In this document: positions 1 through 48,203 of the stretch, piece by piece
Position numbering within the stretch: the stretch's first letter is position 1
How the letters are laid out: each line of letters begins with the position of its first letter
Origin: Methylobacterium goesingense
GTDB lineage: Bacteria; Pseudomonadota; Alphaproteobacteria; Rhizobiales; Beijerinckiaceae
Reading direction: 5' to 3'
Assembly: GCF_022179225.1 (NCBI RefSeq)
Contig: NZ_BPQL01000066.1
Location: 1 to 64,000 of the forward strand
DNA: 64,000 bases
Notes under the pieces: model-generated
The model's input: the letters and a program-made list of their open reading frames with translations, nothing else
Database searches by the model: none
What the model was told of the DNA's origin: nothing
Program-made: the position numbers and the translations under genes

Positions 1-269
1 TGATGATCGGCGAGATCGGCGGTCCCCAGGAGGCGGAAGCCTCCGCCTGGATCAAGGAGCACATGACGAAGCCCGTGGTCGGTTTCGTCGCCGGCCTAAC
101 CGCCCCCAAGGGGCGCCGCATGGGCCATGCCGGCGCGATCATTTCCGCCACCGGCGACTCCGCCGCCGAGAAGGCCGAAATCATGCGCTCCTACGGCCTG
201 ACCGTGGCCCCGAGCCCCGGCGAGTTCGGCACGACGGTGGCGCAGGTGATGCGCAAGCTGGCGGCCTGA
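1..269 (+). CDS. mtkB: Malate thiokinase / succinyl-CoA synthetase alpha-type subunit, C-terminal part
   Basis: Only the last 88 or so codons are present; the gene enters from the left edge. The peptide has the MGHAGAII segment (from base 120) that carries the phosphorylated His of the succinyl-CoA synthetase alpha family. In that family the subunit transfers phosphate from ATP to the acid before CoA attack. The next two genes are PEP carboxylase and malyl-CoA lyase. In serine-cycle methylotrophs this order is mtkA-mtkB-ppc-mcl, so malate activation to malyl-CoA is inferred rather than the TCA-cycle SucD role. The fragment alone would not separate the two. Confidence 0.8.
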
Positions 270-277
270 GATCGTCG

Positions 278-326
278 ACCCTCCCCCGTCTCGTGGGGAG
301 GGTGGTCATGGGCGAGACGGCGGGGG
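278..326 (+). promoter_or_regulatory. Two mutually exclusive hairpins between mtkB and ppc
   Basis: Hairpin 1 pairs ACCCTCCCC (278-286) with GGGGAGGGT (295-303). Hairpin 2 pairs CCGTCTCG (286-293) with CGAGACGG (313-320), extended by CCC/GGG past one bulged C. They share bases 283-286 and the loop region, so they cannot form together. There is no T-run after either stem. It could be an attenuator or RNA-processing site that sets ppc expression, or a member of a repetitive palindrome family: a similar TCCCC...GGGGAGG palindrome lies at 42262-42376. Confidence 0.45.
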
Positions 327-487
327 ATGTCCCCATGCGCTGAGGTCAGGCCCTCGCGCATCGCCCCCGAGCCCCGGCCCTTGAACGTTCCGGCCGCCGA
401 TCGCATGCTTGCGGTGGCCGCTTCACACGGACCGTTGCCCGCTTCCGTCGCGGTCAGTCGGCGAAGAACTTTCCTCAAGGTGGCCCC

Positions 488-42974: not shown

Positions 42975-43059
42975 ACGTCACGGGTCGCGCGCAAGCGGGG
43001 TCTGAAACGGACCCCGCGCGCCATTCGTTGTGATGACAGGACCGGTTCGGGATAGCGCG

Positions 43060-44322
43060 ATGCGTCGGGTAGTGGTGACGGGCTTGGGGATGGTGACGCC
43101 GCTGGCCAGCGGGGTCGAGGCCACCTGGAGCCGGTTGATCGCCGGCGAGTCGGCGGCCAAAGTCGTGACGGCATTCCCCGTCGACGATCTCGCCTGCCGC
43201 ATCGCCTGTTCCGTGCCCTTCGGTGACGGCACGAACGACAGCTTCAACCCCGACGCCTTCATGGAGGCCAAGGAGCAGCGCAAGGTCGATCCGTTCATCG
43301 TCTACGCCATGGCGGCGGCAGGCGAAGCCCTGAACGACGCCGACTGGCACCCGACGAGCTACGAAGACCAGTGCGCCACCGGCGTCATGGTCGGCTCCGG
43401 CATCGGCGGCATCGGCGGCATCTACGACGCCTCCGTGACCCTGCACGACAAGGGCCCGCGCCGGATCTCCCCCTTCTTCATTCCCGGCCGCATCATCAAC
43501 CTGGCCTCCGGCCAGATCTCGATCGCGCACGGGCTCAAGGGCCCCAACCACGCGGTGGTGACGGCCTGCTCGACGGGCGCGCACGCCATCGGCGACGCGG
43601 CCCGGCTGATCCAGTTCGGCGATGCCGACGTCATGGTGGCGGGCGGCGCCGAATCACCCGTGAACCGCCTCGCGCTCGCGGGCTTCGCCGCCTGCCGCGC
43701 CCTCTCCACCGGCTTCAACGATGACCCGACCAAGGCCTCGCGCCCCTACGACAAGGATCGCGACGGCTTCGTGATGGGCGAAGGCGCCGGCGTCGTCGTG
43801 CTGGAAGAGTACGAGCACGCCAAGGCCCGCGGCGCCCGGATCTACGCCGAGGTGATCGGCTATGGCCTCACAGGCGACGCCTACCACATCACCTCGCCGG
43901 CCCCGGACGGCGACGGCGCCTTCCGCTGCATGAGCGCCGCTGTGAAGCGCGCCGGCATCCAGGCCAGCGACCTCGACTACATCAACGCCCACGGCACCTC
44001 GACGCCCATGGGCGACGAGCTGGAGCTGAAGGCCGTTGAGCGCCTGCTCGGCGACCACGCCGCCAAAGCGTCGATGTCCTCCACCAAGTCCTCCATCGGC
44101 CACCTCCTTGGCGCTGCCGGCTCCGTGGAAGCGATCTTTTCGATCCTGGCCATCCGCGACGGCATCCTTCCGCCGACCCTCAACCTCGACAATCCCTCCG
44201 TGGAGACCGCGATCGACCTCGTGCCGCACGAGGCCAAGCGCAAGCGGGTGGATACGGTGCTGTCGAATTCGTTCGGGTTTGGTGGGACGAATGCGAGCTT
44301 GGTGATGCGGCGAGTGGATTGA
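43060..44322 (+). CDS. fabF: 3-oxoacyl-[ACP] synthase II
   Basis: A 420-residue KAS II. The start MRRVVVTGLGMVTPL at 43060 is the family N-terminus. The catalytic triad is visible: Cys in VTACSTGAHAIGDA, His in NAHGTSTPMGD and His in SIGHLLGAAGSVEA. It condenses malonyl-ACP with acyl-ACP. In related genomes mltG normally follows directly; here an AT-rich pair of genes on the other strand comes in between, ending 3 bases from the fabF stop. Confidence 0.96.
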   Translation: MRRVVVTGLGMVTPLASGVEATWSRLIAGESAAKVVTAFPVDDLACRIACSVPFGDGTNDSFNPDAFMEAKEQRKVDPFIVYAMAAAGEALNDADWHPTSYEDQCATGVMVGSGIGGIGGIYDASVTLHDKGPRRISPFFIPGRIINLASGQISIAHGLKGPNHAVVTACSTGAHAIGDAARLIQFGDADVMVAGGAESPVNRLALAGFAACRALSTGFNDDPTKASRPYDKDRDGFVMGEGAGVVVLEEYEHAKARGARIYAEVIGYGLTGDAYHITSPAPDGDGAFRCMSAAVKRAGIQASDLDYINAHGTSTPMGDELELKAVERLLGDHAAKASMSSTKSSIGHLLGAAGSVEAIFSILAIRDGILPPTLNLDNPSVETAIDLVPHEAKRKRVDTVLSNSFGFGGTNASLVMRRVD

Positions 44323-44325
44323 GAC

Positions 44326-45225
44326 TCAGGCTGTTTCCAGATACGCGTTCAGCTCTGGTAAACCCTCAAGGTATGGCCGACTCTGCGAGAAACAGTACGA
44401 GCCTATTTTTGAGAGTAAACTTTCCAGCGAAATTTGCTTTGTACCGCCTATTTGGGCCGCAACATACTTTACAGACATGCGAAGCATCTGCAGCGCGATT
44501 TTCCCTTTTATCCAGTATTTATAGTCAATAGCTTTAAAGCACTTGCATAAAGAAACGATATCGGAGCGACGAAATTCAAAATCGTCAGATTTTATTTGTC
44601 TGGCGATTTTCTCTATTCGATTTCGTTCTTTCACGATCTTATCTTCGTTAGAATTGTATCGAGAAAAGTCACTGATACTCAATTTTTGTAGTTCAACATC
44701 TACTTCCCTAGCCCGCATGTGACAAAACAGGGCCATTGGCGCTAAAAGGTTCCGTGCGAGCACTGCCATAGTACTGTCTATCGAGCTCACGATATTATCA
44801 CGAGCACCCCCCTTAATGGCAGTTGGTATAAATTTTTCGATAAGATATCGAATATACGCCCCTTCCGCAAAGTAGCTCTCTATTGAATAGTATTTAGTTA
44901 CAAACATATCGTTGGGTAATTTATTATTAAATTCGTCAAAATCTCTGTCTCGCAAATACAATATTTTATGCGGATTTATCTTTAATTCGTAATCGTCAAT
45001 AAAACTCTTGACTTCTGCCATCGCTTTCTTCCCGCCACATGTATAAATGCGTAGGGCGTGTCCAGTAAAGTGTGAAGAAAGGAAGTCGAAATAGAAAGGG
45101 GGATCATCGACACCCTCAAAAAAAACGATAACATCGTCAGATTTGTATTCACTATTTATAAACTCAAGGACTGTGGCATTAACGTTGCTCTGCTCTTTAA
45201 TGAGTAGTTCGGCAAAATCAATCAT
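44326..45225 (-). CDS. DUF4435 (TOPRIM-like) protein, AriB-like
   Basis: A 299-residue DUF4435 protein. TOPRIM-like features: VIVFFEGVDDPPFYFDFL (Glu, residues about 30-45), ILYLRDRDFDEF (DxD, near 90) and YYSIESYFAEG (near 115). In PARIS anti-phage loci the DUF4435 protein AriB is the toxic nuclease, held inactive by the ATPase AriA and released on infection to cleave host tRNA. The frame is intact. The ATG at 45225 follows the ATPase stop by one base; a GTG at 45237 is an alternative. The DNA is strikingly AT-rich compared with fabF and mltG, pointing to transfer. PARIS identity is inferred from the two-gene architecture. Confidence 0.8.
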   Translation of the reverse strand: MIDFAELLIKEQSNVNATVLEFINSEYKSDDVIVFFEGVDDPPFYFDFLSSHFTGHALRIYTCGGKKAMAEVKSFIDDYELKINPHKILYLRDRDFDEFNNKLPNDMFVTKYYSIESYFAEGAYIRYLIEKFIPTAIKGGARDNIVSSIDSTMAVLARNLLAPMALFCHMRAREVDVELQKLSISDFSRYNSNEDKIVKERNRIEKIARQIKSDDFEFRRSDIVSLCKCFKAIDYKYWIKGKIALQMLRMSVKYVAAQIGGTKQISLESLLSKIGSYCFSQSRPYLEGLPELNAYLETA

Positions 45226-45226
45226 T

Positions 45227-46594
45227 TTACTGTACACTTAGCTTTCTAACATCAACGATCTGGTTGCGAACCTCATTATCAAAGACAAACGGGCTGTGAG
45301 TTACTGCAAATAACTGACTACACCTTCCCGCTCGCAAGTATGTCAGGCAAAAACTTTCTTTGCCAGGGCACCGAAAGCGATAGCTCGGGCTCATCGATTA
45401 TAACTATATTTTCCTGATCTCGCAGTAGATGCAGGTATGCAAACATGGATACGATCTGTTTTTCTCCCGATGACAAATCATCTAGGAATAATTCTTTTTT
45501 CAATCCTGAACTTTCAAGGTGGAATTCGTAGTTTCGATAAATTACTTGCTTATTATCCGCTATGTATCGAGATACGACGTTCGTAAAATCTACGAATGGG
45601 CGCTCCTCTTCATTCATTTGAACATATACATTCAACATTTTTTCGACAAAAAATCCTAGATATTGCATATCTTTCGACGGCTTCCCTCTCTTTCGCTCTC
45701 TCAGCGACGTTATATCTTTAAACAGGATATTTTTATCTTTTTCCGAGATTAATTGGTCATCAAGACGCGCAACGAACTCCGAAATAATACTAGCATCAAG
45801 GTCGCGTATAATACTGATAGAGTAATCCTTGATTTTCCCCTGCACCATATCTCGGATATATTCCTGCGCAGCAGCATTTGACTTAGTCTTAGATAGTGCA
45901 TTTAGATTTTTCGTGTATTCAAGTATCAGGTTTTTAACATCATCCATGCCGAAGCTGACGATTTCTTGAAATGTAGCACCCCGCCTTGCGAGTGATTGGT
46001 TGGGGTTCAATCGGGTGCGCATCCGATCTTCAATATCGGGAAATATTGACCTTAAATCCTTTTCAATACGTCGATAAGTTGGAAGGTATAGAACCCGGCC
46101 TAAGTTTAATGACTCAAGTTGCCTTTCTGCATCAATGACCTTTGAGCGGAACAAATCGGAAGTTTCGCTTTGTATCATCCGTCGAAGGCGAATGACTTCA
46201 GATGTGGGAACTCCGAGCAACGTTGAATAATATTCGGCTTCAGCTTTCGAAATTCTTGATGAAGAAACAAAATCAGTAAACTTATTAGAATTTCTCAGTG
46301 TAGATATGTATCGATTTAGTCGAGGAGAGATATTATCGGAATTTTCAAAGTCAACCAAATCCAATCGCGACAATACAATTTTTATATCGCCAGCGATCAG
46401 CTCGACATCAGAGAAACTATATTCGATCAGCCTGGACCATTGCTTGTAATAAATAAATAAAATATATTTATGAATGTACTTTTCCCCGTTCCATTTTGGC
46501 CAACAATAATACTGACATTGCCTTTTACATCAAGTTTGTAATTTACATTTCCAAGGATATTATTTGCCCTAAAGCTCCTAATTGGAGTTTTCAT
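45227..46594 (-). pseudogene. AAA/ABC-type ATPase, AriA-like, with two frameshifts
   Basis: Reconstructed length about 455 residues, in three pieces. Piece 1 starts at the ATG at 46594 (MKTPIRSFRANNILGNV), has Walker A VGQNGTGKST, and stops at 46427. Piece 2, one frame away, runs to a TAG at 45318. It contains a coiled-coil middle, the signature LSSGEKQ and Walker B ENIVIIDEPELSLS. Piece 3, back in the first frame, has the switch-His LFAVTHSPFVFD and stops at 45227. The first break lies at a TTTA tetranucleotide repeat (about 46448-46463), the second at GGGAAGG near 45323. The frames compensate, so removing both restores one ORF. It could be decay, phase variation or sequencing error. It is the partner of the DUF4435 gene. 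Confidence 0.78.
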
Positions 46595-46835
46595 CACATA
46601 TGCCCATGCTACCCGAGATATCACTCTAGATTGCACTTTTATGCATTGCAACACTGTCGCTACAAGTAGCTCCGGTGAAGTCGGTTTGCTCACAACTCAT
46701 AGGAGCCTCCGCCACAAAACCCACCAAGTTCGCGCGCCAGAGTGCCAGCCCCCTGCGCCCACCCCCTCGACTCGGGCGCGCGGATTCCCCAACACTCCGG
46801 CGGCGGCCGGGGCGGGGACCTGAGGCCCGAACAGG

Positions 46836-48203
46836 ATGTCCATGTTCTTCCGCAAACGCCCAGAACCGGCGCCGACGCCGATCCCCTCCGACGAGCCGGC
46901 CCTGCCCAATCGCCTGTCGCCGCGCAGCCCCTCCGAGGCGATCAAGCCCACCGCCGCGCCGCCGCCGCCCGACCGTCCGGTTCGTGAGCGCGGCGGGCTG
47001 CTCGCCCGCATCTCCGGCCTGCTCACCGCCTCCGTGGTGCTGGCCATCGCGGTGATGATCGGCGTGACGCTGTTCGAGCGCCAGACCAAGGAGCCGGGGC
47101 CGCTGCCCGCCGACAAGGTCGTGGTGATCCCGCCCCGCAGCGGCACCACCGAGATCGCCGAGGCCCTGAGCCGCGAGGGCGTCATCAGCCACACCGCTCT
47201 GTTCGAGTGGGCGGCCCGGCTCTCCGGCAAGGCGCTGAAGGCCGGCGAGTACACCTTCAAGGCGCATGCCAGCATCGGCGAGGCCATCGACACCCTGGCC
47301 TCCGGCCGGCAGGTGCAGCACGCCATCACCTTCCCGGAGGGGCTGACCTCCGAGCAGATCGTGGTGCGCCTCAACGACAACGACGTGCTCACGGGCGACA
47401 TCAACGAGATCCCCCCCGAGGGCTCGCTCCTGCCCGACACCTACAAGTTCGAGCGCGGCGCCACCCGCCAGCAGATCGTCAACCTCATGCGCGCCAAGCA
47501 GCGCGAGGTCCTGAACCAGATCTGGCTGCGCCGCTCGGCCGAGATTCCCGTGAAGACGCCCGCCGAGATGGTGACGCTCGCCTCCATCGTCGAGAAGGAG
47601 ACGGGCCGGGCCGACGAGCGGCCCCGTGTGGCGGGCGTGTTCGTCAACCGCCTCAACAAGCGCATGAAGCTGCAATCCGACCCCACCATCGTGTACGGGC
47701 TGGTGGGCGGGCGCGGCACCCTCGGGCGCGGCATCCAGCGCTCCGAGATCGAGCGCGCCACGCCCTACAACACCTACGTGATCGAGGGCCTGCCCCCGGG
47801 CCCCATCGCCAATCCGGGCCGCGCGGCGCTCGAAGCCGTCGCCAACCCCTCGCGCACCAAGGACCTGTTCTTCGTGGCCGACGGCACCGGCGGCCACGCC
47901 TTCGCCGAGACCCTGGAGGGCCATTCCCGCAACGTCGCCCGCTGGCGCCAGGTCGAGAAGGCCCGCCAGGCCCCGACCCCGGACGCAGCGGTGGACAAGG
48001 CCGATCCGCCGGGCGCCCCCGCCGTGCCCGGCACCGCCTCGGCCTACGCGCCGGACGGCACCAACATGGCGGCGACGCCCGAGCCCGGCGCCGTGCGCCC
48101 CAAGGCCTTCGACGCCTCGGAGGGGACCCGCCTCGACCCCTTGCGGAACAAGACCTTCGACCTGAATTCGCCCAAGACCGTGCCGGTGCTCAAGCAGCCG
48201 TAG
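46836..48203 (+). CDS. mltG: Endolytic murein transglycosylase MltG
   Basis: A 455-residue YceG/MltG. It has a cytosolic proline-rich N-terminus (residues 1-50), one membrane helix (about 53-75; LLTASVVLAIAVMIGVTLF), LysM-like and catalytic domains. The catalytic Glu is in ASIVEKETGR (near residue 250), followed by LQSDPTIVYG and NTYVIEGLPPGPI. The C-terminal tail is low-complexity. It cleaves nascent glycan strands to set their length. The mltG-yicC-gmk order is conserved in alphaproteobacteria. Confidence 0.95.
   Translation: MSMFFRKRPEPAPTPIPSDEPALPNRLSPRSPSEAIKPTAAPPPPDRPVRERGGLLARISGLLTASVVLAIAVMIGVTLFERQTKEPGPLPADKVVVIPPRSGTTEIAEALSREGVISHTALFEWAARLSGKALKAGEYTFKAHASIGEAIDTLASGRQVQHAITFPEGLTSEQIVVRLNDNDVLTGDINEIPPEGSLLPDTYKFERGATRQQIVNLMRAKQREVLNQIWLRRSAEIPVKTPAEMVTLASIVEKETGRADERPRVAGVFVNRLNKRMKLQSDPTIVYGLVGGRGTLGRGIQRSEIERATPYNTYVIEGLPPGPIANPGRAALEAVANPSRTKDLFFVADGTGGHAFAETLEGHSRNVARWRQVEKARQAPTPDAAVDKADPPGAPAVPGTASAYAPDGTNMAATPEPGAVRPKAFDASEGTRLDPLRNKTFDLNSPKTVPVLKQP

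Follow-up and report, generated by a model that had tools for sequence, protein, structure and literature searches.

The window analysed here is a stretch of 64,000 nucleotides from Methylobacterium goesingense. Two adjacent AT-rich genes on the minus strand have been identified between fabF and mltG (Table 1), in agreement with a sequence-only reading of this DNA. The GC content over 44326-46594 is 39.2%, as compared with 68.3% for fabF, 71.9% for mltG and 66.1% for the whole window. ORFs of low GC are rare elsewhere in the genome, where 2 of 205 mechanically called ORFs (at least 150 aa, from 298 kb sampled) fall below 56% GC. The upstream gene, ariA, starts at 46594 and ends with a stop codon one base ahead of the ATG of ariB, whose own stop is 3 bases from that of fabF. 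The 64-kb window contains no tRNA or tmRNA genes.

Table 1. Features of the fabF-mltG region of the window and of related loci. Names of ATPase motifs are our assignments.
Feature	Position	Strand	Description
fabF	43057..44322	+	Core gene, intact; 3' end is the slot anchor; in compared relatives, left edge of the insert coincides with its stop codon
Variable slot (insert)	44323..46709	.	About 39% GC
ariB	44326..45225	-	Intact, 299 aa; DUF4435/Toprim-like effector
ariA piece 3	45230..45397	-	C-terminal; presumed switch-His VTHSPF; matches C-terminus of P0006
ariA piece 2	45321..46529	-	Long middle piece, other frame; presumed signature LSSGEKQ and Walker B IVIIDEPE; PADLOC AriA 2.1e-15
ariA piece 1	46430..46594	-	N-terminal; presumed Walker A GQNGTGKS; PADLOC AriA 7.8e-7; 90% identical to P0006 residues 1-52
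Conserved block 5' of mltG	46710..46835	+	Right edge of slot; 82-95% identity in 9 close relatives
mltG	46836..48203	+	Intact; right-hand core neighbour in this lineage
Second PARIS pair	G000 contig C201, L105:6530-8867	-	Unbroken, divergent; AriA 461 aa and AriB 324 aa
Second fabF 3' end copy	L115 slot 171-327		Downstream of intact fabF
Second fabF 3' end copy	L121 slot 202-372		Downstream of intact fabF
Second fabF 3' end copy	L065 slot 159-324		Downstream of intact fabF
Low-GC unmatched insert after fabF	L206:457-2415		653 aa
Low-GC unmatched insert after fabF	L210:101-1222		374 aa
Low-GC unmatched insert after fabF	L221:2116-3702		199+320 aa
Low-GC unmatched insert after fabF	L224:3082-3891		270 aa
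Low-GC unmatched insert after fabF	L202:2893-3873		327 aa
Low-GC unmatched insert after fabF	L203:1544-2230		229 aa
Low-GC unmatched insert after fabF	L193:3097-3621		175 aa

The acidic residues of the Toprim domain of E. coli AriB include E26 and others. In the product of the intact ariB of the window, E37-G38, D93, D95, D97 and E116 are invariant across 6 aligned AriB sequences (the window's included), and are putative catalytic residues; the intact DUF4435 with acidic motifs that had been read from the letters is thus confirmed. The protein matches the AriB model of PADLOC (E-value 1.8e-18) and the DUF4435 family of Pfam (PF14491) at 59.3 bits. According to a passage of PMC9122126, PARIS is assigned where DUF4435 scores at least 27 bits next to an ATPase of the AAA_15 (32 bits) or AAA_21 (27 bits) family. 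AAA_21 is found at 30.5 bits on the middle piece of ariA alone. The fold of the window AriB matches that of the solved AriB, with 12% identity over the fold match. Since comparison by sequence with the PDB gave no match below E 0.29, the membership of AriB rests on the models and the fold. The NCBIfam models gave no match for AriB. Its nearest relative, P0002, is 78% identical.

The ATPase gene has all four motifs that had been described for it, which we take to be Walker A, signature, Walker B and switch-His, but they are not carried in one open frame; the break had already been seen, as the word 'repaired' in the sequence-only reading indicates. The gene lies in three pieces and two frames, the third piece being back in the frame of the first. 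Comparison with an intact relative of 455 aa (P0006) places at least two frame changes, at about 46430-46490 and about 45320-45400. The middle piece is 97% identical to this relative over 351 aa and has no stop over that length. The intact relative matches the AriA model of PADLOC with an E-value of 1.1e-27, and it is through this relative that a sequence match to the solved AriA was obtained. P0002 and P0006 are probably from one locus. The nearest relatives are at 97% for AriA (P0006, long piece) and 78% for AriB (P0002), and from these sequences the AriB effector therefore seems to evolve at a much higher rate than AriA, the sensor.

Taken together, PADLOC, Pfam, the AriA sequence match through the intact relative and the AriB fold support the assignment of the pair as AriA/AriB, that is, a PARIS locus. 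The layout of an ATPase with DUF4435 had been proposed earlier as that of PARIS, and the model search suggested for it returns both partners (PADLOC AriB 1.8e-18, AriA 2.1e-15). The pair resembles the PARIS of E. coli B185 and its relatives in being a gene pair of an AAA ATPase and a DUF4435 protein, in the ATPase motifs and in the fold of AriB. It differs in that the window AriB is very divergent (12% identity over the fold match), ariA is frameshifted and the locus is a chromosomal slot behind fabF and not a P4-like satellite.

The proposal that the locus was acquired also holds. Besides the 39.2% GC, this genome is the only one of 111 in the genus in which AriA is matched with an E-value of 1e-20 or lower, and the fabF-mltG site of the other species has short gaps or other cargo. 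Comparison of the junction excludes the occurrence of the pair in all relatives at normal base composition. Beyond the genus, a sample of 347 genomes of the order gives AriA at E 1e-40 in 2, one of them the source genome, and the 6 matches on plasmid records are all below 60% identity. Relatives of the window AriA with an adjacent DUF4435 partner are annotated in Paraburkholderia, and the AriA relative of another genome adjoins an AriB-like ORF (by eye).

In PARIS the AriA ring holds AriB, and sensing of Ocr leads to release of AriB and cutting of tRNA-Lys (PMC11455837). Earlier data are said, in a passage of PMC12409363, to support activation of AriB by AriA and not merely its release. Both genes are needed in the E. 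coli system; deleting either one has no toxic effect and leaves the cells without defence, as stated in part of PMC9122126. By analogy, in an intact pair the AriA ATPase ring would hold AriB until a phage anti-restriction protein is sensed, upon which AriB would be released or activated. AriB so freed would cut host tRNA, as is known from other PARIS systems, and growth would stop. The locus of the window is probably not working, because ariA has at least two frameshifts in the assembly, and ariB would probably be left as a silent and harmless ORF, since E. coli PARIS needs both genes and the loss of either is harmless. We therefore consider the locus a member of PARIS by descent, with a broken ariA and probably not functional.

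It is possible, at less than even odds, that the pair is instead an intact and working PARIS and that the frameshifts arose as errors of sequencing or assembly in the draft. The closeness of the long ariA piece to its intact relative, its freedom from stops, the intact ariB and the position of this AT-rich stretch within a draft of 262 contigs would fit such errors. A real break is favoured by the occurrence of two distinct frame changes within 1.36 kb when the seven core genes around it read without stops. It is also favoured by the finding of no identical intact AriA among the matches listed, where clustering at 90% may hide one, although the window AriB is present on 3 contigs.

The neighbourhood of fabF was surveyed in 111 species-level genomes of Methylobacterium, of which 110 have fabF (G078 is without a fabF match). 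fabF and mltG are adjacent in 63 genomes, including G073 whose contig ends inside fabF, with gaps below 430 bp in 36 and of at least 585 bp in 27. In the remaining 47 genomes mltG lies at a different place or on a different contig; 32 of these loci have an opposite-strand gene with the start MGLL(D/E)SxIGGVLG or similar, presumably DUF937/YidB-like. Among 19 related loci the fabF-mltG gap ranges over 388-2513 bp. The junctions fabD-fabG (11-41 bp), acpP-fabF (80-141 bp) and yicC-gmk (-9 to 12 bp) of the same loci are tight, and fabG-acpP (269-541 bp) and mltG-yicC (-4 to 537 bp) are looser. The fabF-mltG gap of Microvirga is 85-189 bp (12 measurable of 13 loci). In another species group (L132, L134, L143, L152, L126, L148) the mltG-yicC junction is 1.1-3.6 kb long. 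This junction was considered as a second hotspot and rejected, its ORFs being mostly of core GC and not defence-looking (nine loci, by eye).

The edges of the slot are sharp. From the stop of fabF up to the block at 46710, the insert of the window has no DNA in common with the slots of the close relatives compared. The block itself spans the 126 bp before the mltG ATG, is kept in 9 relatives with otherwise unrelated slot contents and is probably the promoter or leader of mltG. The stop codon of fabF varies among the compared relatives (TGA, TAA, TAG). In the species group without an adjacent mltG, the interspecies DNA match resumes where the following gene, which is convergent, has its 3' end. 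In the slots compared, the stop codon of fabF is thus where an insert starts, and it stops short of the leader of the next core gene or of that gene's 3' end; the inserts therefore fill DNA that can be changed harmlessly.

A PADLOC match at 1.8e-18 or better has been found right after fabF in 18 of the 110 genomes, covering 14 types, these matches being to single proteins that do not imply the presence of complete systems. The sequences read were those of the window and 25 others of the 27 long fabF-mltG gaps (G050 was left out) and of all 47 stretches without mltG, one of which (G023) ends at the fabF stop; six of the 36 gaps below 430 bp were fetched but kept outside the scan. Length and GC pattern guided the choice of ORFs for the scan, so that short genes may be missed. 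With mltG as the neighbour, the matches are PARIS in the window, PDC-M19 A+B in G073, a SIR2-type PDC-S25 in Leaf104, PDC-M11A in Leaf465, a type VI retron with an HTH gene in Leaf125, GmrSD/NsnA-like in J-068, dCTP deaminase in BTF04, PDC-M55C/GmrSD in Leaf112 and HEC-07 in M. gossipiicola. The slots without mltG as neighbour have PDC-M34 A+B, PD-Lambda-5 A+B, DRT8, PDC-M11A, AbiU and dCTP deaminase, and in a further set PDC-M07 A+B, NsnA and AbiU. We take PDC and HEC to be names of candidate systems. Since half of the defence-matching slots (9 of 18) are without mltG as neighbour, the 3' end of fabF is the anchor. Broken cargo may be common, because three further defence genes, the dCTP deaminases of BTF04 and of M. 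soli (G047) and the AbiU of G006, are each spread over two ORFs.

A set of 31 inserts was examined, from which inserts of core-like GC were excluded. PADLOC matches at 1e-20 or better are seen in 17; the window AriB stands at 1.8e-18, and G079 (1e-12) and G080 (9e-13) are weak. Eleven have no PADLOC match at 1e-5 (G066, G086, G033, G088, G041, G081, G020, G015, G093, G052 and G055), and among these G015, G093, G052 and G055 have only short or broken ORFs. The seven low-GC unmatched inserts of Table 1 are candidate new defence genes; the one at L202 carries DUF2971 of Pfam. Cargo at core-like GC is also seen, for example an ORF resembling an acyltransferase by eye (4 genomes) and sets of 5-8 kb (4 more); the core-like-GC inserts L069 and L081 and the 199-aa ORF of L211 gave no PADLOC match. 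Transfer of cassettes between species was considered and rejected, as only one cargo pair of the 31 inserts is alike at the DNA level (G012-G060, 67% over 914 nt; at least 120 nt, E 1e-20). The AbiU pair G034/G006 and the dCTP deaminase pair G068/G047 have no DNA-level match at the same thresholds. A remnant without PADLOC match is shared by G015 and G093 (71% over 253 nt).

A conserved core flank with defence systems differing between genomes is thus found in this genus. The placement outside a prophage or P4-type hotspot, within a fatty-acid and cell-wall cluster, was noted from the window; this odd placement is not a one-off, as the slot holds varied defence genes across the genus and is a probable defence hotspot with the 3' end of fabF as its anchor. 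We give a probability of about 0.86 to the reading that the window carries an acquired PARIS locus with a broken ariA in this hotspot, captured probably by recombination. The pair was acquired horizontally and landed in the slot, a place where defence genes can be gained and lost cheaply by every lineage. Against a hotspot, the slot is empty or short in many genomes (36 gaps below 430 bp).

We think it rather unlikely that the slot is just a neutral gap which keeps any insert, in which defence genes dominate as the commonest small AT-rich cargo. The other types of cargo, the two edges at which insertion harms nothing and the want of a recombinase family among 20 slot ORFs (Pfam) would suit a neutral gap, but most other junctions of the same gene block are tight, and the variable mltG-yicC gap held core-GC ORFs without the look of defence genes (nine loci, by eye). 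PADLOC matches at E 1e-20 also occur in 17 of the 31 inserts and in no more than 5 of 60 ORFs taken at random from the source genome (Fisher p 2e-6), the inserts having been chosen by hand after their GC and ORFs were seen and GC being unmatched between the two sets. One of the five baseline matches (QatA) looks like a real defence gene.

The slots of Leaf112, Leaf99 and G015 have a second 3' end of fabF, of 157-173 nt and ending at the end of the gene (E-values 5e-42 to 5e-62). Apart from a 51-nt match in G068, no further matches to the last 180 nt of fabF occur elsewhere in the 111 genomes, the window included. Because three slots keep this second end, we propose that the 3' end of fabF probably serves for capture by recombination; the three duplicated ends fit it, and the cases are few. 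Tentatively, and with low confidence, we suggest the fabF 3' end as a recombination target for repeated and independent capture of single defence systems without mobile-element genes, in which an incoming fabF 3' end would rebuild the essential gene and push the old end and the old cargo downstream. The unmatched inserts would then include undescribed anti-phage systems.

A site-specific recombinase using the fabF 3' end as attachment site to bring cassettes is improbable. Unrelated inserts do have the same left edge at the stop codon and the 3' ends are duplicated in three slots, but no recombinase was found in the 20 slot ORFs by Pfam, and the fabF 3' end has no match in phage records. In plasmid records it has 12 matches, of which 9 are long (80% or more of the query) and lie on replicons of 0.88-4.6 Mb, the other 3 being short and weak; the annotated features under the 12 are fabF in 2, KasA/KasB in 2 and none in 8. 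An attachment core within fabF was considered, as the last 63 nt looked unusually alike between species, and was rejected, the synonymous-codon test giving no excess of conservation: for the last 15 codons 219 of 407 windows equal or exceed the value in an 11-species group, and 45 of 407 in five species.

A second PARIS pair, unbroken and divergent, is encoded in the source genome (PADLOC AriA 4.4e-27, AriB 1.9e-16). It is flanked by two serine recombinase-like ORFs (by eye). That AriB alone was kept for another role after the decay of ariA, for example with this second AriA on contig C201, would agree with the intact ariB and its conserved acidic residues, but is very improbable, as the decay of ariA may simply be recent and cross-activation is unlikely because identity is 21% between the two AriB proteins and 28% between the second AriA and P0006. 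The same genome has a QatA homologue at L236:11789-13762 (G000 C20; PADLOC 2.9e-234) and may hold a Qat system too.

PARIS and hotspots at core genes are already known. The cDHS1 and cDHS2 of Pseudomonas aeruginosa, as described in part of PMC10250203, are like the fabF slot in their fixed core flanks, lower GC, defence systems differing per genome and the lack of a single mobile-element type. The defence-bearing fabF-mltG slots are smaller (1.7-2.5 kb, against medians of 26 and 6 kb), lack tRNA and tmRNA genes in the case of the window, show no recombinase family in 20 slot ORFs (Pfam), and span the species of a genus with one fixed flank, fabF, while the other changes. The hotspots traced through DUF4435 in a portion of PMC9122126, at cI in Vibrionales and at a peptidase gene in Bacillales, are similar in that PARIS traces a place of defence swapping, and have other flanks. 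No report of a defence hotspot at the fabF site was found in the open-licence papers searched, and none combining fabF, mltG and defense. A small slot with sharp edges that follows a core fatty-acid gene, and that carries different defence genes in many species of a plant-associated genus, offers an easy hunting place for new anti-phage genes and a clean case for studying the movement of such genes where mobile elements are gone. The window's copy of PARIS illustrates their turnover, having been acquired and then apparently broken, with a second pair elsewhere in the genome.

A mosaic of fabF has been observed in G093, a MAG. Two of its contigs, C128 and C234 (L093, L094), are concerned: one has a fabF only 86% like that of the window, with a 3' end at 93% and mltG at 94% identity, and the other has a fabF 5' part at 98% identity. 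This mosaic is the result of either recombination or misassembly.
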